This document shows positions 4,631 to 56,605 of a stretch of DNA of 64,000 bases, piece by piece. A program made the position numbers and the translations under genes. Source of the stretch: Fictibacillus arsenicus (GTDB lineage: Bacteria; Bacillota; Bacilli; Bacillales; Fictibacillaceae). Position 1 is the first letter of the stretch. Each line of letters opens with the position of its first letter. The notes under the pieces were generated by a model. That model was not told the origin of the DNA. It made no database searches and was given only the letters and a program-made list of their open reading frames with translations. The stretch spans positions 620,001 to 684,000 of the forward strand of contig NZ_CP016761.1 of NCBI RefSeq assembly GCF_001642935.1, written 5' to 3'.

Positions 4631-4740
4631 TGAGCGCAGATAAGGTGATTTTGAGCGAAACGGGATGGATTTTGAGCGTAGCTCGAGCAGTTTGAGCGTA
4701 ACTAGCCGTATTCTGAGCGTAAACAGCCATTCTTGGGCGA
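4631..4740 (+). repeat. 20-21 bp tandem array, core TTGAGCG
   Basis: The word TGAGCG (last unit TGGGCG) begins at 4631, 4652, 4673, 4693, 4714 and 4734, so the period is 20-21 bases. The remaining bases of each unit are not conserved. The array lies between the bmrD stop and its terminator, hence inside the 3' untranslated region. Confidence 0.75.
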
Positions 4741-4775
4741 ACGTGTAATAAATAAAAGAACACGTACCGTAAATT
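4735..4775 (+). repeat. Array tail element, copy 1 (hairpin)
   Basis: The stretch GGGCGAACGTGTAATA followed by AAGAACACGTACCGTAAA recurs almost unchanged at 27939-27977. ACGTGT and ACACGT inside it can form a 6 bp hairpin. In both places it is fused to the end of a 21 bp array. Confidence 0.6.
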
Positions 4776-4778
4776 ACA

Positions 4779-4820
4779 AAAAAGAGCTGATTCAACCGAG
4801 GTTGAGCCAGCTCTTTTTCT
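4779..4820. terminator. Terminator shared by bmrD and the facing lipoprotein gene
   Basis: AAAGAGCTG at 4781-4789 pairs with CAGCTCTTT at 4809-4817, and inside it TCAACC pairs with GGTTGA. A-rich and T-rich flanks on the two sides allow termination in both directions. Confidence 0.8.
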
Positions 4821-4824
4821 TGTA

Positions 4825-4977
4825 TTAATTTTCTTCTTTATTCTTTTCATCCATTTCATCGTTTTGTTCGCCGTCATCTACACCGTTATCCTGATCGACG
4901 CCATCACCGCAAGCAGTTAATCCACCTAATGTTAACATCGCTGCCAAAGTACCGGCTGCCCATCTTTTTTTCCACAT
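4825..4977 (-). CDS. Small acidic lipoprotein
   Basis: A 50-residue protein begins MWKKRWAAGTLAAML and has the lipobox LTAC, so Cys23 would be the lipidated residue after signal cleavage. The mature part is short and very acidic (many Asp and Glu) with no known domain. A GAGGAG site lies 8 bases before the ATG. It converges on bmrD and shares its terminator. This may be a small membrane-anchored peptide of unknown role; similar short acidic lipoproteins are common in Bacillaceae. It falls below the usual 60-residue cut-off and is easily missed. Confidence 0.7.
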   Translation of the reverse strand: MWKKRWAAGTLAAMLTLGGLTACGDGVDQDNGVDDGEQNDEMDEKNKEEN

Positions 4978-5150
4978 GTGAACCACTCCTCGTTTCATTA
5001 TTTTTAATAATAGTTATTTTTGCTTACTTGAAGATACCCTTTTTGTTGTCGATAAAACATAGTAGTGACAAAATGTGATAAAAGTCACATCGATTCGCTA
5101 AATTTTGGATTAGATTAAATAAGTGATTATAAAGGAAGAAGGAAAAGACA

Positions 5151-6470
5151 ATGGCTTCGATCTTGAGCATCTTAACTAAAAAAGCTGAAAAAAACTCTGT
5201 GCTGAATTTATCAAATGATTTTATTAATGAAGTGAAAATTAACGTACCGTCAGACAGTGAGTGGCAGAAGCAATTAAACATGATTTCTCTTACACTGGAA
5301 GATCTGTCTCTTATCAGGTCGCTAAAGCCCTTAATTTCAGAAAACATTGAGGAAATTGTGGATCAGTTTTATAAAAATATTGAACACGTTCCAGGTCTTC
5401 TGCAAATTATTCAAAAACACAGTTCAGTCAACCGTTTGAAAGTTACACTGATCAAACATATTCAAGAAATGTTTGATGGTGTCATTGATGATATATATAT
5501 AGACCAAAGAAGAGTAATTGCCCACATTCACTTTAAAATAGGATTACAGCCTAAATGGTATATTTGTTCTTTTCAAGATATGCTGCTTTCGATTCTTTCA
5601 ATTTTAGATAAGAACATTGAGAGTAAAACTGAATATCAGCGTGCGGTCAAAGTAGTCACGAAAATCTTGAATTTCGAACAGCAGATTGTTTTAGAAGCTT
5701 TTGAATTTGAACAGATTAAAGAAAGAACACGTCACGAGGAACAGAAACAGCAGATCACCCAATCTGTGGGCAATTCAGTAGAAGAGCTGGCAAGCATCTC
5801 AGAGGAAACAAGTGCTGCATTGCAAGAACTCACGTCTAAAGCAGACGAAGTTGTTGTTTTCGCAAAGGATACAGCTGAATCAGCGGGAGAAGTTTCAAAG
5901 AATTCACTAGCAGGTAAAAATAAACTCGAAGAGCACCAGCAGATGATCAATAAAGTAAAAGAGTAGTCTGAACAGATTTCTGCAGAGCTCGTAAACCTTG
6001 AACAGGCAACCGTTAAAATCAATGATGTGGTTGATATTGTAACAGCTATTGCTGAACAAACGAACCTTCTTTCACTGAATGCCGCAATTGAAGCGGCGAG
6101 AGCTGGAGAAGCAGGTAAAGGGTTCTCGGTTGTTGCTCATGAAGTCAGAAAATTAGCTGAACAGACTAAAACTTCAGTGTCTGGTGTATCAGATCTTGTG
6201 AAAAATACTCATAAAAGGATTGAGGCTGTCTCGGAATCTGTAGCAAGCATCCATCACTTCATTAATGACAGTGTTTCTGAAGCTACGGAGATAACGGATT
6301 TCTTTAATGCGATTTTATCAAAAATGGATGAAAGCACGGAGAGAAGCGGGAAACTTGAAAATGAAGTTGAATTAATGGCAGAAGTAGTAGAAGAACTCAG
6401 CCATGCAGTAGGACAAATCGCTATTTCTGCTGACTCACTTTCAGATGTAACAAGAAGCATGCAAGACTAA
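5151..6470 (+). pseudogene. hemAT: Haem-based aerotaxis transducer HemAT with in-frame amber stop
   Basis: The full frame would give 439 residues, close to the usual length of about 432. Residues 1-180 are a globin-coupled sensor: Tyr74 in the DQFYKN segment and His127 in the HIHFKIGL segment match the distal Tyr and proximal haem His of B. subtilis HemAT (same 53-residue spacing). The C-terminal half is a methyl-accepting signalling domain with the hairpin tip [21 protein letters not shown] single TAG at 5964-5966 (codon 272) splits the two. Frame, codon use and protein similarity continue on both sides, so this is one point change, most simply CAG to TAG. The downstream GTG at 6027 has no ribosome binding site. 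It is probably a recent pseudogene, a sequencing error, or a gene read through at low level. Confidence 0.85.
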
Positions 6471-6476
6471 AAAAAG

Positions 6477-6525
6477 AGGGGCTGCCAAAAGTAAGTTACC
6501 TTACTTTTGGGACAGCCCTAATTTT
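6477..6525. terminator. Strong bidirectional terminator (GGGGCTG family)
   Basis: GGGGCTGCCAAAAGTAAG pairs with CTTACTTTTGGGACAGCCC around a short loop, with A-rich sequence before and TAATTTTTAT after. It serves hemAT and the facing gene, whose stop codon lies in the stem. A close relative is at 51659-51711. Confidence 0.8.
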
Positions 6526-6853
6526 TATTTACTACATATTGAGCTCTGTTTGTTTCAAAGGATACGATATCCGAATCAAGTCTTATGTCCGTTATTCCGT
6601 CAATTGGGATTTCGTATGTTATTGCAGGAAGTTCTACTTGACTGCCTTCTTCAGCTGCATAAGCTGTTCCGTGTAAAAACAATATGTGGTCTCCTAGATA
6701 TTCATCTTCTGCATCTCGCTGTTCGAATGTTGCCTTCTGAAGGGAAATCCTTATTTGATCAATATCTCCTGTTTCTTCCTTGCGTATTGAAATTTGATTT
6801 CCAGCCCAGCCGTTAATTACATCTTTAAGTTCAATTATTTTAGTATCAGACAT
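6518..6853 (-). CDS. Hypothetical protein, 111 residues
   Basis: I do not recognise this protein. It begins MSDTKIIELKDVING and is mixed alpha/beta, acidic, without signal peptide or membrane segment, so it is probably cytoplasmic. The ATG at 6853 is preferred over an upstream GTG at 6862 because the GAGGTG ribosome binding site overlaps that GTG and is well placed for the ATG. The stop codon lies inside the terminator shared with hemAT. It stands alone between two terminators. Confidence 0.6.
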   Translation of the reverse strand: MSDTKIIELKDVINGWAGNQISIRKEETGDIDQIRISLQKATFEQRDAEDEYLGDHILFLHGTAYAAEEGSQVELPAITYEIPIDGITDIRLDSDIVSFETNRAQYVVNKN

Positions 6854-6905
6854 TGTTTTCACCTCATTATCAATTTTCCCGTAATCCGTAATCTTAAACC
6901 GAAGA

Positions 6906-6930
6906 AAAAGCCCCTTTTAAAAGAGGCTTT
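6906..6930 (-). terminator. Terminator of the GDYXXLXY/DUF2157 operon
   Basis: AAAGCCCCTTTT pairs with AAAAGAGGCTTT with one G-U pair. On the minus strand the T-rich run follows the stem, directly after the stop of the 6934 gene. Confidence 0.7.
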
Positions 6931-6933
6931 GAA

Positions 6934-7455
6934 TCAACGAGGCTTTATATCTGTAATCTTAAATGTTCCCCAAGGTGCGACTCTTACTGTAACAACCATG
7001 TCGCTTGCTTGCTGCTCTAAAGTTTTCCCGGTATTTTCCTCTACATAATACCGTTCTATTCCATAATTGATCTGCATCTGTTCAGAAGTATCTCCCCATA
7101 TTCTTTCAGCCTGCCCTTTTAATATAACCTGATGATCTTTTACTTCAGGTTTATCAGGATATACACTTTGAACTTCATAATAACCTTCTTTATTTTCTTC
7201 TAGCACAACAAATGCGGTACGCTGTCTGCTTGCTAATAAGTGTGTTTCGCCTTTCCATTTAGAAACAGGAACATTGCTGATATCAAAACGAAGAGTAACA
7301 TAATCGCCGTATAATATATCTCTAGGATCTACGGGAACGGTTTTTATTTTGATATCTTTGCCAAAATAATCGATGCTGTAGTAGCTTCCGGCGATAAATA
7401 GTAAAAATAAAACTTGAAGTATAGCCGCTATGATCCAGCCTCTTTTTTTATTCAT
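6934..7455 (-). CDS. GDYXXLXY family membrane-anchored protein
   Basis: The 173-residue protein has one N-terminal membrane helix (about residues 7-25) and an extracytoplasmic part with the signature GDYVTLRF that names the family. The ATG at 7455 is used because GGAGGGC lies just before it. The first bases overlap the last 8 bases of the DUF2157 gene upstream, so the two are translationally coupled. GDYXXLXY proteins are typically encoded next to DUF2157 proteins, as here; the biochemical role of the pair is not established. Confidence 0.8.
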   Translation of the reverse strand: MNKKRGWIIAAILQVLFLLFIAGSYYSIDYFGKDIKIKTVPVDPRDILYGDYVTLRFDISNVPVSKWKGETHLLASRQRTAFVVLEENKEGYYEVQSVYPDKPEVKDHQVILKGQAERIWGDTSEQMQINYGIERYYVEENTGKTLEQQASDMVVTVRVAPWGTFKITDIKPR

Positions 7456-8686
7456 GATGCGGCCCTCCATTTTTCAGAATTCGCTTTTTCTTGCGCTGAA
7501 GGAAACCATTAAGCATAAATAACAGAATACCGCCGATTAAGAAAAACATTGATTTCGGCATGAAGGCCCATGCAAGGTTAAAGTACCCCATTAAACATAC
7601 AAGCAAGAACAGAACGATTCCAAAATTAATTTGCGAGCGATTTTCGTTCCTGTACCCCTCTGCCAGCATGAAACCAGAGTATGCAAACATAACAACTAGA
7701 TACAAAAGACCAGTCAGCAGTGGATCTGCCACTTTCGCTAAATAGAAATAGGGAACGAAGATGATTAATTCCCATGAAGGCAGATAAATGCTTTCTTTTC
7801 TTTTTCCGAGAATTGCTAAGGCAAAAATAGCGATCAAAGCAGGCAGGTAAAACGCAGGGTTCGGAAATTCAAAATCTGATAAAAATTCATTTGTGAGCGT
7901 GAAATACAAACCGTACGCAAAAGCAAATCCGATTAAAGACCCCATCCGTTTAAACGATTGTTTAAATAACGATTTATTAATCCACATGCCAGCTGTATAT
8001 AGAGCAAACCCGAACAAGAAGAACCATAGCAGGTTTAGATCTTCAATAATAACTAACAAGAATGCTTGAATACTTAATCCGATTGTAAAAAGCCAGGTTT
8101 CCAATGTTCTTGGGTATAAAAAAACAAAACCTCCAATACTAATCAAAAAGATAACAAAAAGAAAATAACTAAAGTTATTAAATTCCCCCATGCTGTACAA
8201 CTGTCCGCCTATTGTTAATACAGCTAAAAGAAAGAAATACAGCTTGTGTCTGTCTCGAAATAAATAGAATACGGCGGGTAAGCTCCAAAACACAAAAAGC
8301 CTTGCATCTGTGGCAGTCAGGTGAAAAGTTTGACCTAACAAAATAATACTTGCTCCAAAGGTCACGATTCCAAGAAGATTAAGCGATGTTCCCAGAGTTT
8401 CATTCCCTTTTTTAAGATATTTATCACCGGCTGCATAGAAACTGATCATGATTATTACTAAAAGACCCAGCCTTGCTAAGGGAGGGATGTCACCCCAATT
8501 TGATGCAATAAACGATAAAATACCGATTGCGATTAATATGCTTGCTAAAACAGGTAAAATCCCAGTAGATTTTTTCATTTCTTTTGAATCTGGATAACGG
8601 GCAACGATTAAATCAAGCTGGTCAGATGTAATAATTTTTTCTTCTACCCATTTTTGTCCTTCTTGTTTCATCCATTTTTGGTTCAT
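7448..8686 (-). CDS. DUF2157 domain membrane protein
   Basis: The 412-residue protein has a soluble N-terminal DUF2157 segment (about residues 1-65, starting MNQKWMKQEGQKWVEEK) and then about ten or eleven hydrophobic helices. It is an integral membrane protein of unknown function. The start has a GAGGTGGGG site upstream. It is the first gene of a two-gene operon with the GDYXXLXY protein, which overlaps its 3' end by 8 bases. About 190 bases upstream are free and probably hold the promoter. Confidence 0.8.
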   Translation of the reverse strand: MNQKWMKQEGQKWVEEKIITSDQLDLIVARYPDSKEMKKSTGILPVLASILIAIGILSFIASNWGDIPPLARLGLLVIIMISFYAAGDKYLKKGNETLGTSLNLLGIVTFGASIILLGQTFHLTATDARLFVFWSLPAVFYLFRDRHKLYFFLLAVLTIGGQLYSMGEFNNFSYFLFVIFLISIGGFVFLYPRTLETWLFTIGLSIQAFLLVIIEDLNLLWFFLFGFALYTAGMWINKSLFKQSFKRMGSLIGFAFAYGLYFTLTNEFLSDFEFPNPAFYLPALIAIFALAILGKRKESIYLPSWELIIFVPYFYLAKVADPLLTGLLYLVVMFAYSGFMLAEGYRNENRSQINFGIVLFLLVCLMGYFNLAWAFMPKSMFFLIGGILLFMLNGFLQRKKKRILKNGGPHHE

Positions 8687-8844
8687 CTTATCCCCACCTC
8701 ACCAAAAGTATATGTAAGCATTTATGGATTCAGATTAGAAAATTAAAAGTTCTCTATAAGTGTAATATTACACTAAGGCAATTTGGCTATCAAGAAACAA
8801 AATTGGGATTTAATTCGAACTATTTATTGTCGATATAAAATTTT

Positions 8845-8872
8845 AGGAACAGCCTAAAAGTCGGCTGTTCCT
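8845..8872 (-). terminator. Terminator of the SDR gene
   Basis: AGGAACAGCC at 8845-8854 pairs perfectly with GGCTGTTCCT at 8863-8872. On the minus strand it is followed by a T-rich run and lies 8 bases after the stop at 8881. Confidence 0.75.
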
Positions 8873-8880
8873 ATCAAAGG

Positions 8881-9657
8881 TTACTTTTTATCTTGAACAT
8901 AATGAACAATTTTTAATACGGACTTTCGAGGCAGGAAGCGAACCAAGTTAGCTAAAGCTTTATTTTTAAAACCAGGAATCTCTAGTGATTTCTTTTCCAT
9001 CAAAGCTTTATATCCCTCTAGGGCAACTTTATGGGCGTCCATAGCTCCTGACTGAAATAGTCTTGATGACTCAAGGCTCGCTCTTTTTTCGAAGTTTGTT
9101 GCTGTAGCTCTTGGACAAAGAGCGGTTACACTGACATTAGTATTTCTTAGTTCGTAGTTAACAGCTTCTGAAAATGAAAGTACATATGCTTTAGTTGCAT
9201 AATAAACAGCCATTAATGGCCCAGGCTGAAACGCAGCGGTTGAGGCTACATTTAAGATTTTTCCGGAATTGCGTTTGATCATTCCGGGAAGAAGCTGTTT
9301 TGTTAAGGCTGTTAAAGCCATAATATTTACTTGAATCATATCTTTTTCTTCTTTCCAAGATGTCTCATTAAAAGGTCCGTATGCTGCAAAACCAGCATTA
9401 TTAATGAGCACTTCAACTTCAATGCCAGCTGAGGCGAGTTCGGATGTTAATTAATCTGCACTTTCAAGAATACTTAAATCTTTTGCAGCAACTGTAACTT
9501 TTACACCATACGTCGCTGTTAGTTCATTAGCGATCTCTTGAAGTCTTGATTCGTTTCTGGCATTAAGCACGAGATGGTAACCATCTTTAGCAAAAAATGA
9601 AGCAAACTCTAGGCCGATTCCGCTTGAAGCACCGGTAATTAATACTGTTTTATTCAT
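8881..9657 (-). pseudogene. Short-chain dehydrogenase with in-frame ochre stop
   Basis: The complete frame would be 258 residues, the normal size of a classical SDR. The N-terminal cofactor motif TGASSGIG, the INNAG motif and the catalytic YYATK (Tyr-x-x-x-Lys) are all present. A TAA at 9451-9453 interrupts it after residue 68, within the second Rossmann unit; the frame and similarity resume at once on the other side (LTSELASAGIEVEVLINNAG). One base change (for example AAA to TAA) explains it. The N-terminal piece lacks the catalytic residues and the C-terminal piece lacks the cofactor loop, so neither should be active. Start supported by AAGGAG. Confidence 0.8.
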
Positions 9658-9801
9658 AAAGGTTTGGCTCCTTATAATTTATGTTTATATGTTTAAGTAT
9701 ATCGACATATTAACACATATTTAAAAAATAAATAAACAAAAAGCCTCAAAAAAGGTATGATGAAAGATGTATGAATATTTTGATAAAAGGAGGTGCGCAA
9801 C

Positions 9802-11319
9802 ATGAAAAACGTATTGATTGCAAAACATCCTGCAACAGGAGCAACGATTGATCAATGGCTCGAAACGGATATACAGCAAGTTCCTGAAATGTATGAGAAA
9901 GCATCGTCAGCATTTAAATTTTGGTCCAGCCGTTCTTTGGAAACCAGGCTTTCTTTTATAACGAAAATGAAGCAGTATCTTCTGGATCATATGGATGAAA
10001 TCGTTGAAGAAATATGTTCAGCAACAGGGAAAGTGAAGACAGAAGCTCTGACTGCAGATCTTATGCCAGTCATTGATATTCTGCAGCACTATGAAAAGCG
10101 CGCACCAAAAATATTAAAGCGAAAAAGGGTATCAACACCGCTGCTTTTTGTAGGAAAGTCTTCTTATGTGGATTATTTTCCTTTAGGAACGGTTTTAATC
10201 ATCTCTCCATGGAATTATCCGTTTCAGCTTTCCATGACACCTGTTATATCAGCCTTAATTGCTGGTAATTCAGTGATTTTAAAACCTTCGGAAGTGACTC
10301 CTACCATTGGTTTATTAATAGAAAAAATCGCAAGGGAAATTAATCTGCCTAAAAACCTGCTGCAAGTTGCGCATGGCGGTAAAGAACTCGGTCAAGAACT
10401 TGTTTCGGCGACACCGGACAGTATATTTTTTACAGGATCTGTTGAAACTGGACGAAAAATCGGGATAGAAGCAAGCAAGAGGTTTATTCCATACACGCTT
10501 GAGCTTGGGGGAAAGGATCCGATGATTGTATTTGAAGATGCCCCTTTAAAAAGGGCTGTTCATGGTGCGATATGGGGCTCCTTTACTAACGCTGGCCAAG
10601 TATGTATGTCAGTGGAGCGTGTATACGTTCAAAGCTCGGTTCATGGAGAATTTATAGACCGTCTTGTAGAGGAAACGAAAAAGCTGAAGATGGGTGAAGA
10701 CGTTGGTTCTTTAACCTTTCATCAGCAAAAAGATATCATAAAAGATCATGTGCTGGACGCGATCGATAAAGGAGCATTATTGCTGACTGGCCAACACCCT
10801 GATAATTGGGGGGATAGCATGTATATCGAGCCAATGATATTAACAAATATCACGGAAGACATGAAAGTTGTCAGGGAAGAAACGTTTGGTCCTGTAATGC
10901 CAGTCATTGCTTTTACTACAGAGGAAGAAGCGATTCAAAAGGCGAATAATACGGAATTCGGCTTAAATGCAAGTGTCTGGACGAAAGATAACGGAAAAGC
11001 GAACCGCGTTACGTCAAAACTTGTTACAGGTAATGCCGTGATTAATGATGTTCTTGTTTCGGTAGCAAATCCTCATCTGCCGTTTGGGGGCGTCAAAAGC
11101 AGCGGCACCGGTAGATATCATGGTGATGAAGGACTATATACTTTCTGCCGGCAAATGTCGGTTATGAAAGATCCTGGCATTAAGCAAAAAGAGATTAACT
11201 GGTATCCTTATCAGAATAAATATAAAAAAGTACGGACTCTTATACAGGCATATTTTTCAAATAACAAACAAAAGGCAGAGCTATTACGTTCATTCTATAA
11301 ACAGCTGCTTAAAAAATAA
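9802..11319 (+). CDS. Aldehyde dehydrogenase family protein
   Basis: The 505-residue protein has the full aldehyde dehydrogenase core: ISPWNYPFQL for cofactor binding, LELGGKDPM with the general-base Glu, and NAGQVCMSVERV with the nucleophilic Cys. It should oxidise an aldehyde to an acid with NAD(P) in the cytoplasm. Substrate is not predictable from the sequence. A C-terminal basic tail of about 40 residues follows the usual end of the fold. The ATG at 9802 is chosen over the GTG at 9793 because AAGGAGGTG lies just upstream and overlaps that GTG. It diverges from the broken SDR gene and has its own terminator. Confidence 0.85.
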   Translation: MKNVLIAKHPATGATIDQWLETDIQQVPEMYEKASSAFKFWSSRSLETRLSFITKMKQYLLDHMDEIVEEICSATGKVKTEALTADLMPVIDILQHYEKRAPKILKRKRVSTPLLFVGKSSYVDYFPLGTVLIISPWNYPFQLSMTPVISALIAGNSVILKPSEVTPTIGLLIEKIAREINLPKNLLQVAHGGKELGQELVSATPDSIFFTGSVETGRKIGIEASKRFIPYTLELGGKDPMIVFEDAPLKRAVHGAIWGSFTNAGQVCMSVERVYVQSSVHGEFIDRLVEETKKLKMGEDVGSLTFHQQKDIIKDHVLDAIDKGALLLTGQHPDNWGDSMYIEPMILTNITEDMKVVREETFGPVMPVIAFTTEEEAIQKANNTEFGLNASVWTKDNGKANRVTSKLVTGNAVINDVLVSVANPHLPFGGVKSSGTGRYHGDEGLYTFCRQMSVMKDPGIKQKEINWYPYQNKYKKVRTLIQAYFSNNKQKAELLRSFYKQLLKK

Positions 11320-11353
11320 AAGCGATTCAGCATAGAGCTGAGTCGCTTTTTTT
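11319..11353 (+). terminator. Terminator of the aldehyde dehydrogenase gene
   Basis: AGCGATTCAGC pairs with GCTGAGTCGCT, and a run of T follows. It begins right at the stop codon. Confidence 0.8.
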
Positions 11354-11372
11354 AGGCTGTTTTCGTTAACAA

Positions 11373-11611
11373 TGTTGCTCTTGAAAGTGGTTGATTTCCG
11401 CTCCAGGATGTTCGCTTTCCGCAGGGCGTGCGGTGAGCCTCCTCGCGCTTTGCGCCTTTAGGAGTCTCACCTGTCCGCTTCATGGAAGTATCCTTGCTCC
11501 TGCGTCTACAAGTATATGCTACCGATGTAAGCTTCCTCGTCGCGTGCCTAACGAGAAGCTTCTCAAGTGGTAGGCACGCACCTTGCTCTCCAATCAACTT
11601 ATCAATGAAGA
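11373..11611 (-). repeat. Dispersed palindromic intergenic element, copy B (long form)
   Basis: On the plus strand it reads GTTGATTTCCGCTCCAGGAT, CGGTGAGCC and later CCTTGCTCTCCAATCAAC, so it is inverted relative to copy A. It keeps the long middle segment (CTCCTGCGTCTAC and GCGACGAGGAAGC on the two strands). It fills nearly all of the 340-base gap between the aldehyde dehydrogenase and the ArsR regulator. Confidence 0.85.
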
Positions 11612-11658
11612 AAAAGAACAAAATAAGCTAGAAGCCGACAATTTTTTATAAAGACCTT

Positions 11659-11967
11659 TTATAGAATACATTCTTGTTCAATGATGTTAATCAGTTGTTT
11701 AAGCTGCACAACCGTTTGATCCAGCGTTAAAAAGTAAAAGATTTCTTTTCCCCGTTTTTCTGTTCCAACGATTCCAGCTTCCCTTAAAATTTTTAGATGA
11801 TGGGAAACAGTCGGACGTGACATGGGTGATTGGTTTGCTATATCTGTTACGTTCATTTTTTCTGCTTCAGCTAAAAGTAAAACAAGATCTTGCCTGACGG
11901 GATCACCAAGTGCTTGAAATAAAGGGATTGTTTTACGGAACATTTCAACTGCATATTCATTCGACAT
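11659..11967 (-). CDS. ArsR family winged-helix regulator
   Basis: The 102-residue protein is a typical single-domain ArsR repressor: the dimerising N-terminal helix, then the helix-turn-helix with recognition helix around RPTVSHHLKILREAG, then the beta wing GKEIFYFL. I see no cysteine pair in the usual metal-sensing positions of ArsR or CadC, so it may sense another signal or none. An upstream extension of the frame to 12153 overlaps the SASP promoter region and is rejected; the GTTGGTG site supports the start at 11967. No obvious target operon is adjacent. Confidence 0.8.
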   Translation of the reverse strand: MSNEYAVEMFRKTIPLFQALGDPVRQDLVLLLAEAEKMNVTDIANQSPMSRPTVSHHLKILREAGIVGTEKRGKEIFYFLTLDQTVVQLKQLINIIEQECIL

Positions 11968-12328: not shown

Positions 12329-12349
12329 CACTATACAAATCATGGCTGT

Positions 12350-12694: not shown

Positions 12695-13346
12695 ATTCGC
12701 TTATTCTGATTCTGCGTTCCATTAAAACTCTTAAACCATCCAGTAAAGAAGTTAAAATCCAATAAATAACCGCCGCTTCTAATAACACGGGCAATACAAT
12801 CAGCTGTGATGCACTGATTTGATCTGCCATAAGTGTTAACTCTGGAACCGTTATGACTGACGCTAGAGATGAAGCTTTTACAATATCGATTAAGGAGTTC
12901 CATACAGAAGGAATCGATATTCGCCACGCTTGCGGCAAAATGACTTCTTTATATGTCAGATACCGGTTCATTCCTAATGAAAAGGCAGCTTCCCATTGTC
13001 CTTTTTCAATAGATTGTATGGCGCCGCGATAGGATTCAGCGATATATGCACTGAAATGCAGGATCAAACCGGCTAGTGCAGCTTGCCAACCCTGGGGTAC
13101 ATAAATAAATGTAAATCCGTTATAAAGAATCAGTAATTGAATTAATAATGGCGTTCCTCTAAAAAAGGAAATGTATCCTTTAGCAAATCCCGATAGAATC
13201 TTGCTTGATGACATTCTGCATAAGGCGATGACGAGCCCGAAGATAAGAGCTCCCAAAATAGAAAATAAGCTGATGAGGATAGTAAAAACAGCTCCCTCCA
13301 GCAAATAGGGGAGGGAGTTGATCAGAATCTCTGATAGGTTATTCAC
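12693..13346 (-). CDS. Polar amino-acid ABC transporter permease
   Basis: The 217-residue protein has five or so membrane helices and the His/Glu/Gln-type permease domain, with the ATPase-contact loop AAFSLGMNRYLTYKEVILPQ (the EAA motif). It works with the substrate-binding lipoprotein encoded just upstream. It starts with GTG at 13346, overlapping the upstream gene by 8 bases, and a GGAGAAG site lies inside that gene. No ATP-binding subunit is encoded beside it: the next gene is convergent. The ATPase must come from elsewhere in the genome. Confidence 0.85.
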   Translation of the reverse strand: MNNLSEILINSLPYLLEGAVFTILISLFSILGALIFGLVIALCRMSSSKILSGFAKGYISFFRGTPLLIQLLILYNGFTFIYVPQGWQAALAGLILHFSAYIAESYRGAIQSIEKGQWEAAFSLGMNRYLTYKEVILPQAWRISIPSVWNSLIDIVKASSLASVITVPELTLMADQISASQLIVLPVLLEAAVIYWILTSLLDGLRVLMERRIRISE

Positions 13347-14121: not shown

Positions 14122-14274
14122 TAGAAGTCCTCCTAGTCGAGAGTTAATCCCGACAATTTTTATAGAATTAATTGTAATAACCCTTTTCTTTTTCGTCAAT
14201 CATTAAACATTTTCCCCGAGAAAGAAAAAAATAACAGGGAATTTTGTTCTATTTCTTGACTGGGTATACTTAAT

Positions 14275-14370
14275 CACATAAAAACTACGGACAATCATAT
14301 AAAAATAGGCATTAATCACATAAAAATGGAGAGTTATCACATAAAAACAGGACCTCACCATATATTTTTT
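14275..14370 (-). repeat. 21 bp tandem array, core ATCACATAAAAA
   Basis: Units begin at 14275, 14296, 14317 and 14338, exactly 21 bases apart, with a fifth decayed unit near 14357. Each has a conserved 12-base core (ATCACATAAAAA, once ATCATATAAAAA) and a 9-base part that differs in every unit. It lies between the terminator of the msmX-type gene and the amino-acid transporter operon. It holds most of the 325-base gap 14122-14446. Confidence 0.8.
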
Positions 14371-17710: not shown

Positions 17711-17746
17711 AAAAAAATGACCGCTTCTTTTATTAGAAGCGGTCAC
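17711..17746 (-). terminator. Terminator of the CdaR-type gene
   Basis: TGACCGCTTCT pairs perfectly with AGAAGCGGTCA; on the minus strand a run of seven T follows. Confidence 0.85.
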
Positions 17747-17759
17747 GTTCCAAAATTAT

Positions 17760-22807: not shown

Positions 22808-22875
22808 GTTCACGGGAGTATGGGAAGGATTTATGCTCGTTCGGAGAGATTTATGCGCTCCGGAAGAGTTCATAA
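22808..22875 (+). repeat. 20 bp tandem array, core GATTTATGC
   Basis: Four units begin at 22808, 22828, 22848 and 22868 (GTTCACGGG, GATTTATGC, GATTTATGC, GTTCATAAC). The two middle ones are nearly identical, the outer ones decayed. It fills part of the 284-base gap between the HAD gene and the aldehyde dehydrogenase; no terminator is clear in this gap. Confidence 0.6.
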
Positions 22876-27875: not shown

Positions 27876-27977
27876 AAGCGAAACTGAAGGGACACTGGGT
27901 GAAACGAGCACTCCAACGGGTGAAAGTTCATCTCTAAGGGGCGAACATGTAATACATATAAGAACACGTACCGTAAA
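27876..27977 (+). repeat. 21 bp tandem array, core GGGTGAAA, with hairpin tail
   Basis: GGGTGAAA units start at 27897 and 27918, then GGGGCGAA near 27939, 21 bases apart, with a decayed unit upstream. The last unit runs into the same tail (27939-27977, GCGAACATGTAATA to AACACGTACCGTAAA) that ends the array after bmrD. It lies between the yhaP terminator and yhaO. Confidence 0.65.
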
Positions 27978-37396: not shown

Positions 37397-37557
37397 TTGT
37401 TGCTTTTGTAAGTTGTTGATCTCCGTTCCAGAATGCTCGCTTTCCGCGGGGCGTGCGGTGAGCCTCCTCGACGCTTTGCGTCCTTAGGAGTCTCACCTGA
37501 CACCCTGATCCCGCAGGAGTCTCGCACCTTGCACTCCTATCAACTTGTCAATGAAGT
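37397..37557 (-). repeat. Dispersed palindromic intergenic element, copy D (short form)
   Basis: Inverted relative to copy A: it reads GTTGATCTCCGTTCCAGAAT, GCGGGGCGTGCGGTGAGCC, AGGAGTCTCACCTG, CCGCAGGAGTCTCGCACC and CACTCCTATCAAC. It lies between yhaL and the prsA side of a 466-base gap that also holds a 21 bp array. Confidence 0.85.
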
Positions 37558-37642
37558 GAAAGAAAATACTGGTCATAAGCAACAATCTTTTAGAAAAGAG
37601 CGTGTGTTATTTATAAGAGTGTGTCTTCCTGGTACGAACAAC

Positions 37643-37735
37643 TTTTGTATGAAAAGGCATTTTTGTTCAGTGGGAACGATTTTTTGTACGGTTGGAGCAA
37701 ATTTTTGTTCGGTTCAAGCCCATTTTTGTTCGGTC
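37643..37735 (-). repeat. 21 bp tandem array, core ATTTTTGTTCGG
   Basis: The G of TTTTTGT falls at 37647, 37665, 37686, 37707 and 37728: one step of 18, then three of exactly 21 bases. The last three units read TTTTTGTACGG, ATTTTTGTTCGG and ATTTTTGTTCGG with unrelated spacers. It lies beyond the prsA terminator. Confidence 0.75.
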
Positions 37736-37769
37736 GTGTTTTTTTCAGGAAAATGAGGCTCGAAAAAAG

Positions 37770-49816: not shown

Positions 49817-49885
49817 TGTTTCTGAACGCCTCTTTTTGAAACATAAGGAGTTATTAAACGTATTGTTTTGGAGAGGAGGAGTAAG

Positions 49886-50632: not shown

Positions 50633-50633
50633 A

Positions 50634-50664
50634 GGCCAGCTAAAATTTTTAGCTGGCCCTTTTA
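50634..50664. terminator. Terminator between ecsC and the ferritin-like gene
   Basis: GGCCAGCTAAAA pairs with TTTTTAGCTGGCC, then CTTTTAATTTTT follows. It may serve both convergent genes. Confidence 0.82.
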
Positions 50665-50677
50665 ATTTTTAGTTTGT

Positions 50678-51109
50678 TTAGAAGCGGCTATCGCTTAAGA
50701 GACGATCCATTTCTTCCTTATGTTTTGTTTCATCAGCAATCATATCTTCCAGCTGAACTACTAGCTCAGTCAGCTTAAGGTTAGAAGCTTGTTCTTTGCG
50801 CTCTTCATAACGTCTGATTGTATCTTCCTCGGCATTACGTGCTTCTTCCAGCATTTCACGAACACTTTCTACTTGTTTAACAGGTTTCGGCTGAGTAGTA
50901 GGTGTTCCACCTAATGTCTTAATCTTTTCTGCTAAATAAAGTGCATGTCCCTGCTCATCAGTAATTTCACCTTGGAAGAAAGGTTTTAAGATCTGACGGT
51001 ACAATCCGGATACAGTAGCTGCATTATGGTTGTACATAATGATTGCTGAGTACTCGTTTGCAAGATCCTCGTTTAGTCCATCAATTAGTGCTTGTAAGTC
51101 TTTTTCCAT
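50678..51109 (-). CDS. Ferritin-like domain protein
   Basis: The 143-residue, four-helix protein shows the di-iron pattern of ferritin-like proteins: Glu in LANEYSAII, ExxH in TDEQGHALYLAE, Glu in AEEDTIRRYEE and ExxH in ADETKHKEEM. It is closest in style to bacterioferritin-type or Dps-like proteins, so iron storage or oxidation is likely but unproven. It is cytoplasmic and stands alone. Confidence 0.8.
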   Translation of the reverse strand: MEKDLQALIDGLNEDLANEYSAIIMYNHNAATVSGLYRQILKPFFQGEITDEQGHALYLAEKIKTLGGTPTTQPKPVKQVESVREMLEEARNAEEDTIRRYEERKEQASNLKLTELVVQLEDMIADETKHKEEMDRLLSDSRF

Positions 51110-51313
51110 TTGTATAACCTCCTGAATCTTGTTCTATAAAAGTATCCTTCCCTTTTTCTAACTATAGTAAACCGGAAGTATGGATAGAAAAACTCAAATA
51201 AAACAAACTGTATAAATAAGTTTAAGTTGTGGAAAAAAAGGTAAAAGGATAACTGGCCTAGCACAATCGTTAAACAAAGGTCATACACATACACTTTTAA
51301 GGAGGTAACAAAA

Positions 51314-51646
51314 ATGGAAAGCAAACACATGGTGGACAAAGAACGTGATGTAGACGTGAGCAAGGTTGAGGACACAGCAAACCGTATGAGCGAAAGCAAA
51401 AAAGACGAAATCTTGTCTAACTTTGAAGAGTTCAAAAGCTATCTTCACAGCAAAGTTGAAGTCGGCGAGAAGATGGGGATGAGTGAGGAAACACTTGCAA
51501 AAACGGCAGAAAAAGTTGCTGATTACCTCGCTGCACACGAGGAGCCTCGCAACTCTGAAGAAAACCTCTTAAAAGAATTATGGAAAGTTGGAGAACAAGA
51601 AGAGCGCCATAAGCTGGCTCATATGCTAGTGAAACTTGTTAAATAG
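51314..51646 (+). CDS. DUF3243 protein
   Basis: The 110-residue, charged, helical protein contains FEEFKSYLHSKVEVGEKMGM, EETLAKTAEKVADYLAAHEEPRN and LLKELWKVG, the DUF3243 pattern (YmfJ type), read in parts. Function unknown. AAGGAGGT lies 10 bases before the ATG. A strong terminator follows. Confidence 0.82.
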   Translation: MESKHMVDKERDVDVSKVEDTANRMSESKKDEILSNFEEFKSYLHSKVEVGEKMGMSEETLAKTAEKVADYLAAHEEPRNSEENLLKELWKVGEQEERHKLAHMLVKLVK

Positions 51647-51658
51647 AATGTATGACCA

Positions 51659-51711
51659 AGGGGCTGTCCCAAAAGCAAGGTAAACTTGCTTTTAGCAGCC
51701 CCTAATTTTTT
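51659..51711 (+). terminator. Terminator of the DUF3243 gene (GGGGCTG family)
   Basis: GGGGCTG pairs with CAGCCCC and AAAAGCAAG with CTTGCTTTT; TAATTTTTTATTTT follows. Its arms closely match the terminator after hemAT. The rest of the gap to 51932 shows a loose inverted repeat (51744-51755 and about 51809-51820) and nothing else. Confidence 0.82.
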
Positions 51712-51932
51712 ATTTTCACAAAATAAAAAATAAATAAATATCGTCCAAATTTAGCTATTTAATAGAGTTTATTTAATAACCTACTATTTTATAATAATGG
51801 ACGTTATCTAAATTGGATTAAATAAAAAGAGGCATAACCTCAATAGTGTACAGTCTGCTGATTAAAGGTGTTTAACACTTGTTCAAAAAGTGAAAACTTG
51901 AGGTATATATTTATTACAAATGAGGAGATTTT

Positions 51933-52640
51933 ATGTTACGCGACTTAGCAGCAAAATTACCTTTTCCAATACTACCTGTCATCTATATATTAGCTGGTTT
52001 AATGCTCTCATTTTTCTCGTTAAATATATTCTTTGAGCTGTCTGAAGATCTGATGGAACAGGAACGTTTTCGGTTTGACCAAGTTATCATACAATATGTA
52101 TCGAATATTCGAACCGAATCGTTAACAGACATCATGAAATTTATTACCTTTTTAGGTGGTACAACGGTTCTTACACTTCTATTGATAGGGAGTCTGGTTT
52201 GGCTGATCGTGAAACGCAAAAATTATTGGGGAGCAATTTTTTATATCATTGCAGTTGCAGGAGGCGGTCTTTTAAATCTTGGTCTTAAACATTGGTTTGG
52301 AAGGGTTCGACCGGAAAACAGCCTAATAGTTGAACAGGGATTTAGCTACCCTAGCGGTCATTCAATGGGAAGTTTAATTTATTATGGATTCTTAGGCTAC
52401 TTAGTAATAAGAAGCCAGAGGGGAAGATCACTCAAACTGTTGTTGGGGATAGGTTTTATCACTTTGATCTTGCTGATCGGATTCAGCCGTATCTACTTAG
52501 GAGTCCACTATCCATCTGATGTGCTGGCTGGCTTTTCTGCAGGTACTGTCTGGCTGCTTTTATGTATCGGCGGCCGTGAGTCTATTAGGGCATACAAAAA
52601 AAAGACGCTTCCTTTTTTTAAAAGGAAACATCCCCAGTAA
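51933..52640 (+). CDS. PAP2 family membrane phosphatase
   Basis: The 235-residue protein has about six helices and the three phosphatase motifs K-x6-RP (KHWFGRVRP), PSGH (YPSGHSMGS) and S-R-x5-H-x3-D (SRIYLGVHYPSD). It should remove phosphate from a lipid phosphate such as phosphatidic acid or undecaprenyl diphosphate at the membrane. Its 3' end overlaps that of the facing lipid kinase gene by 23 bases. Confidence 0.87.
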   Translation: MLRDLAAKLPFPILPVIYILAGLMLSFFSLNIFFELSEDLMEQERFRFDQVIIQYVSNIRTESLTDIMKFITFLGGTTVLTLLLIGSLVWLIVKRKNYWGAIFYIIAVAGGGLLNLGLKHWFGRVRPENSLIVEQGFSYPSGHSMGSLIYYGFLGYLVIRSQRGRSLKLLLGIGFITLILLIGFSRIYLGVHYPSDVLAGFSAGTVWLLLCIGGRESIRAYKKKTLPFFKRKHPQ

Positions 52641-53532
52641 GTGCTGATAGATACTGCTTCATGCATGTAACGACAGAAGGTGTTTTTTGTTCCCGTTCTC
52701 CATCACAGTCAATTAACTGTTGGGGAGCGGTTTTTATTTGGATTTCTGAACTTTGGAAATAGTGATAGCCCTGTCCCTCATAGGATGTGTCGGTAAGCCG
52801 GTTCTGCAGAACATTCCAAATAAACGAAATAGATGGTTCTTCGATGAGCAAACAATCCAGTTTGCCATCTTGAATATCAGTATCTGGAAAGAAAGGTCTG
52901 ATCCCGCCTGTGAAAGGTCCGTTTACGGCTAAAAACATGGCTGCTTTCCCTTCGAACTGAAACTCCTCAGATTGAACCGAGATCTCAAAAGGTTCCCACG
53001 TTTGCATTGATTTTGCCGCAGATAAATAATACGACAGTCTTCCGAATCTTTCTTTAGTATCAGGGTCTATTGATTCTGAAACATGTGTAATTAATCCGAC
53101 TCCCCAAAAATTCGTGAAGAAATGTCCGTCGAATTCTCCTATATCAATATGCCGGATATTTTTCTGGCTCAGCTGTTCGGCTGCTTTCACAGGATTTTGG
53201 TTCATGCCTAGAGCCCTGGAAAAATCATTGCAGGTTCCTCCAGGCAAAATACCGAATGCAGGTTTTCTTTCTTTTATTGATAATAATGCCTCTGCAATTT
53301 CATGTACCGTTCCGTCTCCGCCTGCTGCAAGGATCACATCTGAATTTGAATGGAGCTGCTCTACAAAAGATGCGCCTTCCCCAGGGGCTGTTGTTTCGTA
53401 TACTTGTACATCATTAAAACCATTCTTCAATTCTGTAATGACTTCGTTCCAATTGTTGAGAAGGCGTCCCTGTCCCGCTTTAGGATTTAAGATAACAGAA
53501 ACACGTTTTAGTTCTGATGCATTCATACTCAT
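52618..53532 (-). CDS. Diacylglycerol kinase family lipid kinase
   Basis: The 304-residue protein has the N-terminal NPKAGQGR, the GGDGTVHEI nucleotide motif and GTCNDFSRAL, all typical of the DagK/YegS family, and a C-terminal beta domain. It phosphorylates a lipid such as diacylglycerol. The start overlaps the stop of hmoB (ATGA), so the two are coupled. It converges with a 23-base overlap on a PAP2 phosphatase, the enzyme type that does the reverse reaction. Confidence 0.85.
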   Translation of the reverse strand: MSMNASELKRVSVILNPKAGQGRLLNNWNEVITELKNGFNDVQVYETTAPGEGASFVEQLHSNSDVILAAGGDGTVHEIAEALLSIKERKPAFGILPGGTCNDFSRALGMNQNPVKAAEQLSQKNIRHIDIGEFDGHFFTNFWGVGLITHVSESIDPDTKERFGRLSYYLSAAKSMQTWEPFEISVQSEEFQFEGKAAMFLAVNGPFTGGIRPFFPDTDIQDGKLDCLLIEEPSISFIWNVLQNRLTDTSYEGQGYHYFQSSEIQIKTAPQQLIDCDGEREQKTPSVVTCMKQYLSALTGDVSF

Positions 53533-54020
53533 TGAACGACCATGTATTCTTTGACAAATGACTTACCAGAGAAAAGAGTTTCAGGAAGTCCTTTAGACGT
53601 GCCTCTGTCCTTATGAGCTTCTTCATATGCTTTAGATTGCTGCCAATTAATGAAATCAGCATGCGAATTCCATAGAGTCATAATAATATATGGGTCTTGG
53701 TGAAGCGGGCGAAGTACACGAATTCCAATGAATCCAGGTTCACTCTCAACAAGCCCTGCACGATTTTGAAAGCGCTCTTCAAAAAGACTCCGGCCATCTT
53801 CTGTAACAGGAACGTGATTCATAACGACAAAGCCTGCACCTGATAAAGAACCTCTCTGGTTGATCACATCATATTCATGTTTTTCAGTAAAAGGATTCTC
53901 TCCATCTGTTTCATAAACGAGTGCGGAGTTTGAATCACCTTCTAGCAGGAGCGCCTGGTTGTATTTTTCTTGATGGCTGGATAAATAGTCAGTAGTTCCG
54001 TACGTGATATATGTCTTCAT
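53529..54020 (-). CDS. hmoB: Haem-degrading monooxygenase HmoB (YhgC)
   Basis: The 163-residue protein has a C-terminal ABM/IsdG-type domain with the catalytic trio suggested by FVVMNHVPV (Asn), INWQQSKAYEEAH (Trp and His). The N-terminal part matches the extension typical of HmoB (166 residues in B. subtilis). It opens haem to release iron in the cytoplasm. In B. subtilis it lies beside pbpF, as here. A small hairpin (AACCC with GGGTT near 54064-54079) lies between it and pbpF. Confidence 0.87.
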   Translation of the reverse strand: MKTYITYGTTDYLSSHQEKYNQALLLEGDSNSALVYETDGENPFTEKHEYDVINQRGSLSGAGFVVMNHVPVTEDGRSLFEERFQNRAGLVESEPGFIGIRVLRPLHQDPYIIMTLWNSHADFINWQQSKAYEEAHKDRGTSKGLPETLFSGKSFVKEYMVVQ

Positions 54021-54177
54021 TTGCTAATCCCTGCCTTTTAATCGATTTATCTTTGTTTTACCCAACCCACATGCGGGTTAAACAGTGTAAGAATCTTACT
54101 GCTTGTAATATACTTTCCATCTGAGGGAAAATTATATAAAATGTACTTTTCGACCTAGAAAGAAATGAGGTTTGATT

Positions 54178-56400
54178 ATGGTGAAGAAAAGTCTTGTCGC
54201 ACTTGGTATTTTAGTTGGTTCGTTGATCATCGGATTTTTTGCCTATCTTTTTATCATTATGGCGGGAGACTATGTGATTGATGAAAAAGACCTTGTGATG
54301 GATTCGGCGACGTTTTTGGTGAACGAAAAAGGTGAAAGAATCACAAAAATATATGATGAGAACAGGGAAATTGTTGATATTACAGATATTCCTGACCATG
54401 TTCAGGAAGCTTTTGTAGCAGTAGAGGACTCTCGTTTTTATAAACATAACGGAATTGATGCAAAAGCGATTTCACGTGCCGTTTATAAAGATATTCTAGC
54501 TGGAAGCAAGGTGGAAGGCGGAAGCACGATCACGCAGCAGCTGGCTAAGAATGTTTTCTTATCACATGAAAAATCCTGGCTCCGCAAGACGAAAGAAGCG
54601 GTTATCGCTATTAATCTTGAACGAAGATATTCAAAAAACAAGATTTTGGAGATGTACCTGAACCAAATTTATTTTGGACATGGGGCATACGGCATTCAGC
54701 TTGCTGCAAAAACGTATTTTAATAAAGATGTAAGTGAGCTTACTGTTGCAGAGGGTGCAATGCTTGCGGGTCTTCCGAAAGCTCCAGGCCATTACTCGCC
54801 GATTAAACATCCGGAGGCTGCAAAGGAACGCCGTGATCTAGTGCTGACGCTTATGGAGAAGCAAAACTATTTATCTCCGAATGAAACGGTAAGAGCACAG
54901 GGCCAGACGATCGCCGTAAACTTTACTCAGGAAGAACGAAATCCGGCTTATTCTACTTATATTGACATGGTTATTAAAGAAGCGAGAGAGAAGTACCATA
55001 TATCGAGAGAAGAATTGAGGCAGGGCGGATATAAGATAGTCGTGCCAATGGATCCTGCGGCACAAAATTCTGTTTATAAAAGCTTTCAAGAAGGAAAGTA
55101 TTTTATCGGGACCGGAAAGGAAAAACCTGAAGGAGCAATGGTTCTCATGGACAGCCAGACAGGGGGACTGCTCGCTGTTCAGGGCGGACGGAACTATGTG
55201 ACAGAAGGGCTGAACCGTGTTGAGGTAAACCGGCAGCCAGGGTCCACCTTTAAACCATTATCCGTGTATGGTCCTGCTTTGGAATCGGAAAAATATAAGC
55301 CGTATTCCATGCTGCTGGATGAGGAAATGAGCTATAACGGATATGAGCCGAAGAACTATAACGGCAGATACGAAGGGAAAGTATCGATGGTGGATGCGAT
55401 CACACACTCTATTAATTCATCAGCTGTATGGCTTTTGAATGAGATAGGTATTACCTATTCCAAAGAGTATTTAGAAGATCTCGGGATGCCGATTGAAGAT
55501 AAAGGACTCGGCATTGCGCTTGGCGGAATCGATCATGGTGTAAGTCCTTTGCAGATGGTTAAGGGCTATAGAAGTTTCCTTCATGAAGGAAAGACCGTCG
55601 AACCTTTTGTGATCAGCAAAATCTACAATCATGAAGGCGAGCTGATCGGCAAGGCAAAACGTGAGGAAAAGAAAGTCTGGACGAAGCAGAATGCATGGAA
55701 TATGACACGCATGCTGCAGCTGGTTGTAAAGAACGGAACAGGTTCAGATGGTCCGGAAAATATGGAGATTGCGGGGAAAACTGGAACGACCAATTATCCG
55801 AACGTGGATAAAGGAAATAAAGATACTTGGTTTGTTGGGTTTACCCCTCAAGTGGTCGGTGCAGTTTGGGTGGGATATGATAAAACGACAAAAGAATCCT
55901 ATTTAAACAGCGGAAGTGCACAGCCAACCCTTCTTTTTAAACAAGTGATTAACGAGATGCCTTCACAACAGGGTTTAGCGTTTAAAAAGCCTGATGGAGT
56001 GAAGGATTTAGAACCTCCGATCGAAATGATAGTGATTGGTGATCTTTCTGCAGATTTTGGTATGGGTGACTATGGTATGCCATCAGTCAAGCTAAAATGG
56101 ACACCTTCTAAGGACAAGCGTCTTCAATATAAAATATATGCTGTAAATGATGGGGAATCCACAAAATTGGAAACGGTAAAAGGAAAGGGAGAATATGTTG
56201 CTTCAGGCAAGCATTTGTTCACACTGCCTGACTTTTATGTCGTTCCATATAACCCTCTTACAAAAGAAGAGGGACACCCTTCAAATACAGTTTCGATCTC
56301 ATTTTTTCCGAGCTTTGGTGATGATGACGATGATAAAAAAGAGAGCCGCGGAAATAATGGAAAGAAGAAAGACAAGAAGAAAAAGAAGAATGATGATTGA
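54178..56400 (+). CDS. pbpF: Class A penicillin-binding protein PbpF
   Basis: The 740-residue protein has an N-terminal membrane anchor (about residues 5-27), a glycosyltransferase domain with catalytic Glu83 in EDSRFYKHNG and GGSTITQQLAKN, and a transpeptidase domain with Ser356 in PGSTFKPL, SxN in SINSSAV and KTG at 534 (GKTGTTNYP). It polymerises and cross-links peptidoglycan outside the membrane. The C-terminus has a very charged Asp/Lys tail of about 30 residues. It is slightly longer than B. subtilis PbpF (714). It diverges from hmoB. Confidence 0.92.
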   Translation: MVKKSLVALGILVGSLIIGFFAYLFIIMAGDYVIDEKDLVMDSATFLVNEKGERITKIYDENREIVDITDIPDHVQEAFVAVEDSRFYKHNGIDAKAISRAVYKDILAGSKVEGGSTITQQLAKNVFLSHEKSWLRKTKEAVIAINLERRYSKNKILEMYLNQIYFGHGAYGIQLAAKTYFNKDVSELTVAEGAMLAGLPKAPGHYSPIKHPEAAKERRDLVLTLMEKQNYLSPNETVRAQGQTIAVNFTQEERNPAYSTYIDMVIKEAREKYHISREELRQGGYKIVVPMDPAAQNSVYKSFQEGKYFIGTGKEKPEGAMVLMDSQTGGLLAVQGGRNYVTEGLNRVEVNRQPGSTFKPLSVYGPALESEKYKPYSMLLDEEMSYNGYEPKNYNGRYEGKVSMVDAITHSINSSAVWLLNEIGITYSKEYLEDLGMPIEDKGLGIALGGIDHGVSPLQMVKGYRSFLHEGKTVEPFVISKIYNHEGELIGKAKREEKKVWTKQNAWNMTRMLQLVVKNGTGSDGPENMEIAGKTGTTNYPNVDKGNKDTWFVGFTPQVVGAVWVGYDKTTKESYLNSGSAQPTLLFKQVINEMPSQQGLAFKKPDGVKDLEPPIEMIVIGDLSADFGMGDYGMPSVKLKWTPSKDKRLQYKIYAVNDGESTKLETVKGKGEYVASGKHLFTLPDFYVVPYNPLTKEEGHPSNTVSISFFPSFGDDDDDKKESRGNNGKKKDKKKKKNDD

Positions 56401-56404
56401 GTTA

Positions 56405-56438
56405 AGGGAGATGGCTTTTGTGCCATCTTCTTTTTTTG
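56405..56438 (+). terminator. Terminator of pbpF
   Basis: AGATGGC pairs with GCCATCT, followed by TCTTTTTTT. Confidence 0.82.
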
Positions 56439-56499
56439 CAGTTTTTATTAAGGGGACGTTTGTCGAAAGTTGACGGAAATCGTTTTTAATTAAAATACC

Positions 56500-56605
56500 G
56501 TGCGATTCTATCACGCTAACGTGCGATTTTTAAAAATAATGTACGATTAATGAAAATAACGTGCGATTAAGCTTACTACGTATTAATCAGGGACCGTGTG
56601 ATGCT
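56500..56605. repeat. 20-21 bp tandem array, core GTGCGATT
   Basis: GTGCGATT or GTACGATT starts at 56500, 56521, 56541 and 56561, with decayed units near 56581 and 56596. Spacing is 21, 20, 20. It lies between the terminators of two convergent genes, so it is probably little transcribed. Confidence 0.75.

Follow-up and report, generated by a model that had tools for sequence, protein, structure and literature searches.

What element could hold its repeat spacing constant from one intergenic region to the next while its core word changes from place to place? The question is raised by a 64,000-nt stretch of Fictibacillus arsenicus DNA (the window), positions 620,001–684,000 of a genome (here G000) that forms one contig of 4,055,461 bases and whose closest relatives are Fictibacillus. 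A first-pass annotation of the window had listed tandem arrays with units of 20–21 bp at six intergenic places (4631, 14275, 22808, 27876, 37643 and 56500), had given each its own core word, and had proposed one generating mechanism or a structure-reading factor instead of a fixed binding site. Such units are confirmed at all six places, and oriented arrays with a constant period of two helical turns and varying words are real and more extensive than was claimed. Behind many genes of these soil bacteria, spacing and direction are kept while the words differ between rows and, at one and the same place, between species, a pattern suggestive of a novel type of DNA-bound structure at gene ends. 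The reading that we favour, tentatively and a little short of an even chance, is that the arrays are phased, oriented rows of putative protein-binding sites at gene ends, which tandem amplification renews and selection maintains.

Period and anatomy of the arrays

Arrays were searched for as chains of 8-base words recurring at a lag of 19–23 bases, and counted when they had at least four units and lay outside open reading frames (ORFs) of at least 200 aa. Genes were long ORFs picked by script, without annotation, and runs of N mimicking arrays (L125, L130) were removed. The intergenic autocorrelation that had been set beforehand as the check on the arrays' reality is far above shuffled sequence at lag 20–21: in 61.5 kb of intergenic DNA (245 gaps from a 464-kb sample), exact 7-mer matches number 67 at lag 20 and 119 at lag 21; 20 dinucleotide shuffles average 8.4 and 9.3, and the real sequence shows echoes at 40–42. 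Across 1.04 Mb of G000, within intergenic gaps of 100 bases or more (141 kb in total), there are 36 arrays of at least four units against a mean of 0.05 in shuffles, and 48 against 2.8 when at least three units are asked for, giving a density of about 35 arrays of at least four units per Mb. The period is also specific. In 864 kb outside long ORFs, 30 arrays of at least four units occur at lag 19–23 and none at lags 12–16, 24–28 or 29–33; with at least three units, the corresponding numbers are 45, 13, 5 and 5. Within the window, the chain search returns four arrays (at 4629, 14272, 37659 and 56500), a fifth four-unit chain at 12718 being excluded from the count because it sits within a 217-aa ORF, and Tandem Repeats Finder (TRF) gives a period of 20–21 at four of the six places. 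The arrays of the window and their accessory parts are the following:

4627..4740, + strand: group A array, words TTTTGAGCG(A/T/C)A, five units plus terminal word TTGGGCGA
4741..4773, + strand: group A tail (ACGTGT, 13 bases, ACACGTACCGTAAA), one of 56 genomic copies
14270..14350, − strand: class T array, TTTTTATGTGAT on the strand of the flanking genes and ATCACATAAAAA on the + strand, four units at 21
22823..22870, + strand: short class M array, GATTTATGC, two clear units in the window, 5–17 in seven relatives
27876..27944, + strand: group A array, words GCGAAAC / GGGTGAAAC / GGGTGAAAG / GGGCGAAC
27945..27977, + strand: group A tail, the window's second copy
37640..37740, + strand: class F array, ATTTTTGTTCGG, four units at 21 and a possible fifth
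56459..56468, + strand: group B head, TTTGTCGAAA
56498..56605, + strand: array with word (A/C)CGTGCGATT, four units, gaps of 21, 20 and 20

The separate core words first assigned to 4631 and 27876 dissolve into a single family, as both arrays end in the same 33-base tail. The array at 22808 is weak in the window alone, where it has two clear units, and gains its backing from the seven relatives.

A unit consists of a conserved word of ~8–12 bases and ~10 free bases. About 15 word families occur, some of them alike; the classes, their number and their reference strands were assigned by eye once examples were known. Group A is defined by its tail of 33 bases, which contains an inverted ACGTGT/ACACGT pair and whose conservation stops at GTAAA(A) (37 distinct copies). 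The tail has 56 copies in the genome at no more than three mismatches, and none when read backwards. Six words before the tail is the modal number (28 of 59 tails with a recognised terminal word, from 60 distinct matches that include one viral, apparently coding stretch). The words include TTGAGCG, GGGYGAAA, GCGTGAAA and others, and in six further Fictibacillus genomes the same tail stands behind words such as CAGGTGG, CCGGTGAA and GCGCGTAAA (30 of 104 places read). By eye, group A spacers are mostly dissimilar to each other. The words within one array are slightly more alike than chance (0.60 vs 0.69 mismatches, shuffle sd 0.02), a small coherence because most arrays carry TGAGCG.

Group B arrays start with the head TTTGTCGA, and at the 836-kb site of G000 the copy in the relative G014 bears head and tail together; in the remaining classes (M, T, F and single words), neither head nor tail was recognised. 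In the sequences examined, a detected array stands no more than 60 bases from 17 of 57 intergenic TTGTCGA sites (a raw count), and by eye more of them adjoin degenerate arrays that fall below the finder's detection. The head TTTGTCGAAA, at window 56459 and in other group B heads, equals what we take to be the Spo0A box, and class W words (TTTGTGGATTGA and GTGGATAA, in L010, L013 and L069) resemble what are presumably DnaA boxes. We considered and set aside an account of the arrays in which TTTGTCGA is a Spo0A box and TTTGTGGAT a relative of the DnaA box, both as we assume these boxes to be, as it leaves the other words unexplained. In L013, class W words are joined to a group A tail.

The period holds across all these words. 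Gaps between units measure 20 or 21 in 234 of 240 cases in group A (18–23 allowed) and, with 17–25 allowed, in 115 of 125 in the tail-less arrays of G000, 207 of 212 in G014 and G002, and 26 of 26 in sister genera. The share is thus 92–100% per group although wider gaps were permitted. The mean gap is 20.3–20.7 by group and about 20.4 overall, for all words and for the sister genera.

Selection, placement and turnover

G002 and G014, the two nearest relatives compared, have ~90% identity to G000 and are colinear with it across the compared region. Counted solely on branches not used for array discovery, changes are rarer in words than in spacers: 38/764 (5.0%) vs 101/1182 (8.5%) for arrays found in G000, 27/748 (3.6%) vs 104/1146 (9.1%) for those found in G014, and 15/512 (2.9%) vs 87/790 (11.0%) for those found in G002. 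Spacers evolve as fast as the flanks or faster. Arrays have 15 short insertions and deletions (indels) per 3359 aligned bases and flanking intergenic DNA has 31 per 2551 (0.45 vs 1.22 per 100; Fisher p 0.0014), a 2.7-fold depletion; of 13 longer indels, 10 add or remove whole units. Judged from these alignments, both sequence and helical phase appear to be read.

The arrays are placed at gene ends. They occur in 14 of 66 convergent gaps, 19 of 262 codirectional gaps and 3 of 109 divergent gaps (convergent vs divergent, p 1e-4); although divergent gaps have the greatest mean length, they are the poorest in arrays. The class F array at 37640..37740 has a PPIC-type isomerase gene converging on it and an MFS gene and a 123-aa ORF upstream, and the array at 56498..56605 sits between a penicillin-binding protein gene and a convergent ORF. 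Direction follows the genes in the arrays outside group A: in codirectional gaps, the reference word strand is the gene strand in 25 of 27 and, beside lagging-strand genes, in 6 of 6, in a count in which orthologues recur and eight classless arrays are left out. For group A, the gene strand is taken in 14 of 18 and the leading strand in 23 of 27, and a lagging-strand gene is followed in 0 of 2.

Within our sample, arrays are restricted to one bacterial family. Of 18 Fictibacillus genomes, 17 contain an 18-base part of the group A tail (at most one mismatch); among 242 other genomes of the order, one does, in a single copy with one mismatch. One genome placed in Fictibacillus, G001, gave no match to the tail pattern. 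In 140 kb from two genomes of sister genera, labelled as the same family (short contigs L125 and L127 omitted), there are five arrays of at least four units, with wholly other words. In other families of the order, none were found in 520 kb (300 + 220 kb) from 11 genomes, and there were none in 14 stretches (266 kb) of far genera.

At orthologous sites, arrays come, go and change class. Of the 137 gaps in G000, 118 are common to G000, G002 and G014; an array is present in at least one species in 22 of these, in at least two in 14, and in all three in 7. Eight of the 11 relatives, like the window, have a detected array at the 37643 site (beyond L082, the place was assigned via the distance to an anchor gene). 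The window shares its class F with L079 and L080; L081 and L082 have group A there, and L083, L085, L086 and L088 have class T. L087 has a class T array nearby, perhaps in the same gap, and none was detected in L084 or L089. Class M units with drifting words occupy the 22808 site (in L083–L088 again assigned via the anchor gene) in L079 (6 units), L080 (5), L083 (5), L084 (17), L085 (8), L086 (13) and L088 (5), with two units in L082 and none detected in L081, L087 or L089. Group A with differing words fills the 27876 site in the window, L079 and L080, and is found in none of the other nine relatives. At the site of window 14270..14350, G002 bears another word class. Different classes share one gap between species in intergenic regions (IGR) 15, 41 and 70, at 619.6 kb and, by eye, in IGR 38; five or six such gaps were seen vs about one coincidence expected by chance (a hand estimate). 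Either the array matters more than its word, or such gaps are simply tolerant ones.

Tandem amplification renews arrays and alters their words, as is seen at two sites. At 781 kb of G000, G002 has a hybrid, a block of ATTTACGAGCGG followed by ATTTATGCGCG units, which represents block-wise word conversion; G014 has expanded the first word of this hybrid, and G000 carries mainly ATGCTCG units. At 850 kb, there are a few degenerate units in G000 and G002 vs at least six near-identical ones in G014. Near-identical class M expansions reach 18 units in L074 (at 1694; G000 3.05 Mb) and 19 units in G014 near G000 0.84 Mb, both of which are possibly variable loci for strain typing, and G014 has further near-identical expansions of 14 and 12 units.

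Repeats of other kinds were also encountered. A different dispersed repeat of ~100–300 bp (GATTTCCGCTCC..GCTTTCCGCGGGGCG) lies at window 11347–11652 and 37398–37518; it is abundant in the genus, and its presence varies between species. In L005, the left flank of the array bears a different dispersed repeat. Another inverted repeat (GGGGCTGTCCCAAAAGTAAG..) occurs in G002 at the orthologues of window 17717–17755 and of G000 738.3 kb, and is absent from G000.

Competing readings of the arrays

In the reading that we favour, an array would be a row of oriented direct sites on double-stranded DNA, two helical turns apart, at gene 3′ ends, and the bound subunits would lie on one helix face and form a short oriented oligomer. 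A group A row would mostly have six words and be capped by the inverted ACGTGT/ACACGT pair, and a group B row would carry the TTTGTCGA head at one end. Amplification of single units would make arrays grow and change their words, after which spacers could drift freely while selection holds words and phase; the coherence of words inside an array would arise because one unit was amplified and every copy is under selection. Reading may fall to a single DNA-binding protein of this bacterial family, or to a few related ones, tolerant of several words. Taken together, the two-turn period shared by many words, the scarcity of short indels, the freely drifting spacers, the more slowly changing words and the chance-level RNA folds point to putative proteins side by side on double-stranded DNA. 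Given their placement behind genes, above all convergent ones, the arrays would most likely serve to insulate transcription units, probably through a nucleoprotein stop to read-through or antisense transcription, or through a nucleoid anchor. Of what the first-pass annotation proposed, a single generating mechanism or structure reader agrees with the constant period, the few short indels, the mixing of classes at one site and the visible amplification. Its companion idea, that no fixed site is involved, is not borne out: substitutions are rarer in words than in spacers, individual words reappear at many loci, and tails and heads are fixed.

Several observations weigh against this reading. An array is present in one species only at 8 of the 22 occupied gaps, and many arrays are therefore dispensable. 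Several word classes per genome are awkward for one sequence-reading protein, and the orientation of group A may track replication instead of genes. Insulation does not predict the uneven density along the chromosome, where the origin half of the G000 record has 30 arrays of at least four units in 640 kb and the middle half 8 in 400 kb; for group A tails, 23 of 56 lie in the middle half (p 0.23), and 2 of 21 in G010. The contrast between words and spacers is weakest on the G002 branch for arrays found in G000 (21/382 vs 42/591), and it comes from 10 of 17, 10 of 25 and 7 of 16 arrays found in G000, G014 and G002, the others (7, 15 and 9) having been dropped as too diverged, anchorless, of overlong span or holding a run of N. 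Finally, arrays and species pairs are reused in the word, indel and direction counts, which are thus not fully independent and make the p-values optimistic.

A bolder proposal, which we consider unlikely though worth stating, is a family-wide marking system, in which what is conserved is the geometry of a six-site 'rail' (two turns, one direction, capped) at gene ends, mostly convergent, and the word is a replaceable address. Classes would turn over at each site by amplification or replacement of units, while a structure-reading protein or co-evolving paralogues would keep insulating the same gene ends. If true, a bacterial lineage would keep helix-phased directional structures at many gene ends with the sequence free to change; function would then be conserved in geometry and not in a motif, so that motif searches and RNA-family libraries would be blind to such arrays. 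This would bear on how bacteria separate adjacent transcription units and on how tandem amplification can renew binding sites without loss of function.

The arrays could, as a doubtful alternative, be selfish dispersed elements. Array plus tail, or head plus array, would then form a non-autonomous mobile element of small size; a transposase or recombinase would move it to places behind terminators, always in the same orientation, with the words as recognition sites that differ per subfamily. The 56 tail copies and the presence or absence of arrays at orthologous sites are what such an element would leave, and some TTGAGCG copies have common spacers, so that by eye whole arrays were copied. Heads start with TGTCGA, a likeness, we assume, to TnsB/TniA-type transposon ends. 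One pair of tails, the only such pair noticed, is inverted and outward-pointing, ~5.3 kb apart (G000 3,517,074, −, and 3,522,362, +). Against these stand the other copies, which are one-ended; in eight alignments, whose borders are blurred, neither a second end nor a target duplication was recognised by eye. Two gains in G002 were examined for spread as part of a larger module: the linker and terminator beside a group A gain have no second copy in the sequences examined, and the left part of a class P gain has its sole match (62 bases) at the orthologous place in G014. Nor do resident arrays look like neutral remnants, given their slow words and few short indels. A search for Mu-transpos_C and TniQ gave no match, with the controls equally silent. 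The rve domain has 9 matches, 8 of which are one 297-aa frame, probably IS3-like. Copies of this frame lie at G000 235,882; 867,965; 1,513,852; 3,659,217 and four more places. A phage or plasmid origin of the 4631 element was also considered and found no match; the two viral-contig matches to the tail pattern are one identical stretch, array-less and apparently coding.

Neutral minisatellites, in which slippage expands units wherever they are tolerated and slippage or template switching keeps the words alike, seem improbable to us. They would account for the near-identical expansions (18 units in L074; 19, 14 and 12 in G014) and for the block-wise conversion at 781 kb. Slippage predicts many periods, however, and the period seen is 20–21 across ~15 word families and the sister genera; it predicts either orientation, whereas arrays outside group A follow genes; and the fixed tail, modal six words and mostly unlike spacers of group A are foreign to it.

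We give very little credence to RNA elements, that is, arrays transcribed as 3′ tails or small RNAs whose words are repeated binding sites or short guides. Words outside group A are oriented with the upstream gene, and a word plus a variable part recalls guide arrays in outline. By eye, the 4631 array precedes its terminator: it begins ~30 bases past a stop codon, and a hairpin and T-run, absent from the terminator scan, follow its tail. The initial statement that arrays lie mostly beyond terminators thus fails for this one and, by terminator scan and by eye, holds for the other five, which speaks against transcription of the arrays. The six window arrays fold at chance (z −1.4 to +1.2 vs shuffles), and the whole window has no Rfam match at gathering score, which within the window speaks against RNA structure and known RNA families. 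Spacers drift at or above the flank rate, and no Nop-domain or Cas1 gene was found, with positive controls. A coding function is dismissed, as no counted array lies within an ORF of 200 aa or more and a 20-base gap disrupts the frame (short ORFs overlap some window arrays).

Likenesses to known systems

That no named element class fits the arrays, as first stated, is uncontradicted: we met no description of such arrays in the open-access titles and abstract openings that we surveyed. As far as can be tested, the arrays do not show the defining features of any known family considered.

Similarities in outline are nonetheless several. A short conserved word and ~10 variable bases in a regular row recall CRISPR arrays and TIGR arrays (PMC12045711). 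The difference is that spacers here drift like neutral DNA and that the arrays are single and scattered. Cas1 has no match in the genome (control positive in 9 of 14 genomes), and neither has the Nop-domain Tas protein (control positive in 4 of 14 genomes, all archaea, so that a divergent bacterial or phage form could escape).

REP and BIME elements are placed at gene ends in Enterobacteriaceae and others. They are reported to form many dispersed extragenic copies in composite clusters and to act as binding sites, the REPs being palindromic and alternating in orientation within BIMEs (PMC2817692). The dispersed extragenic copies and gene-end placement are shared with our arrays, which differ in being direct, rigidly spaced at 20–21 bp and made of many words, and the six in the window fold no better than shuffles. 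Of the tyrosine transposase that accompanies REPs (Y1_Tnp), the genome has one gene, at G000 3,685 kb.

The ends of Tn7-like and Tn5053-like elements, bound by TnsB and TniA, carry short rows of direct sites ~20–22 bp apart, starting from a TGT terminus. Direct sites at this spacing are present in the arrays, which differ in being one-ended save for the one outward tail pair, in showing no cargo that we could see, in their density of ~35 per Mb and in their slow words. Iterons and ParR-type plasmid centromeres are tandem direct repeats of about two helical turns, bound by an oligomerising protein, the Rep or ParR of their own replicon. The arrays resemble them in having tandem direct sites on one helix face (gaps of 20–21, few short indels); they are chromosomal, have locus-specific words and, by extrapolation, mark more than 100 gene ends, and no plasmid DNA similar to the 4631 element was found. 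The bcr1 element of the Bacillus cereus group is a small multicopy intergenic repeat of Bacillales with one conserved sequence. The arrays described here are likewise small multicopy intergenic repeats, but what defines them is their spacing, not one sequence.

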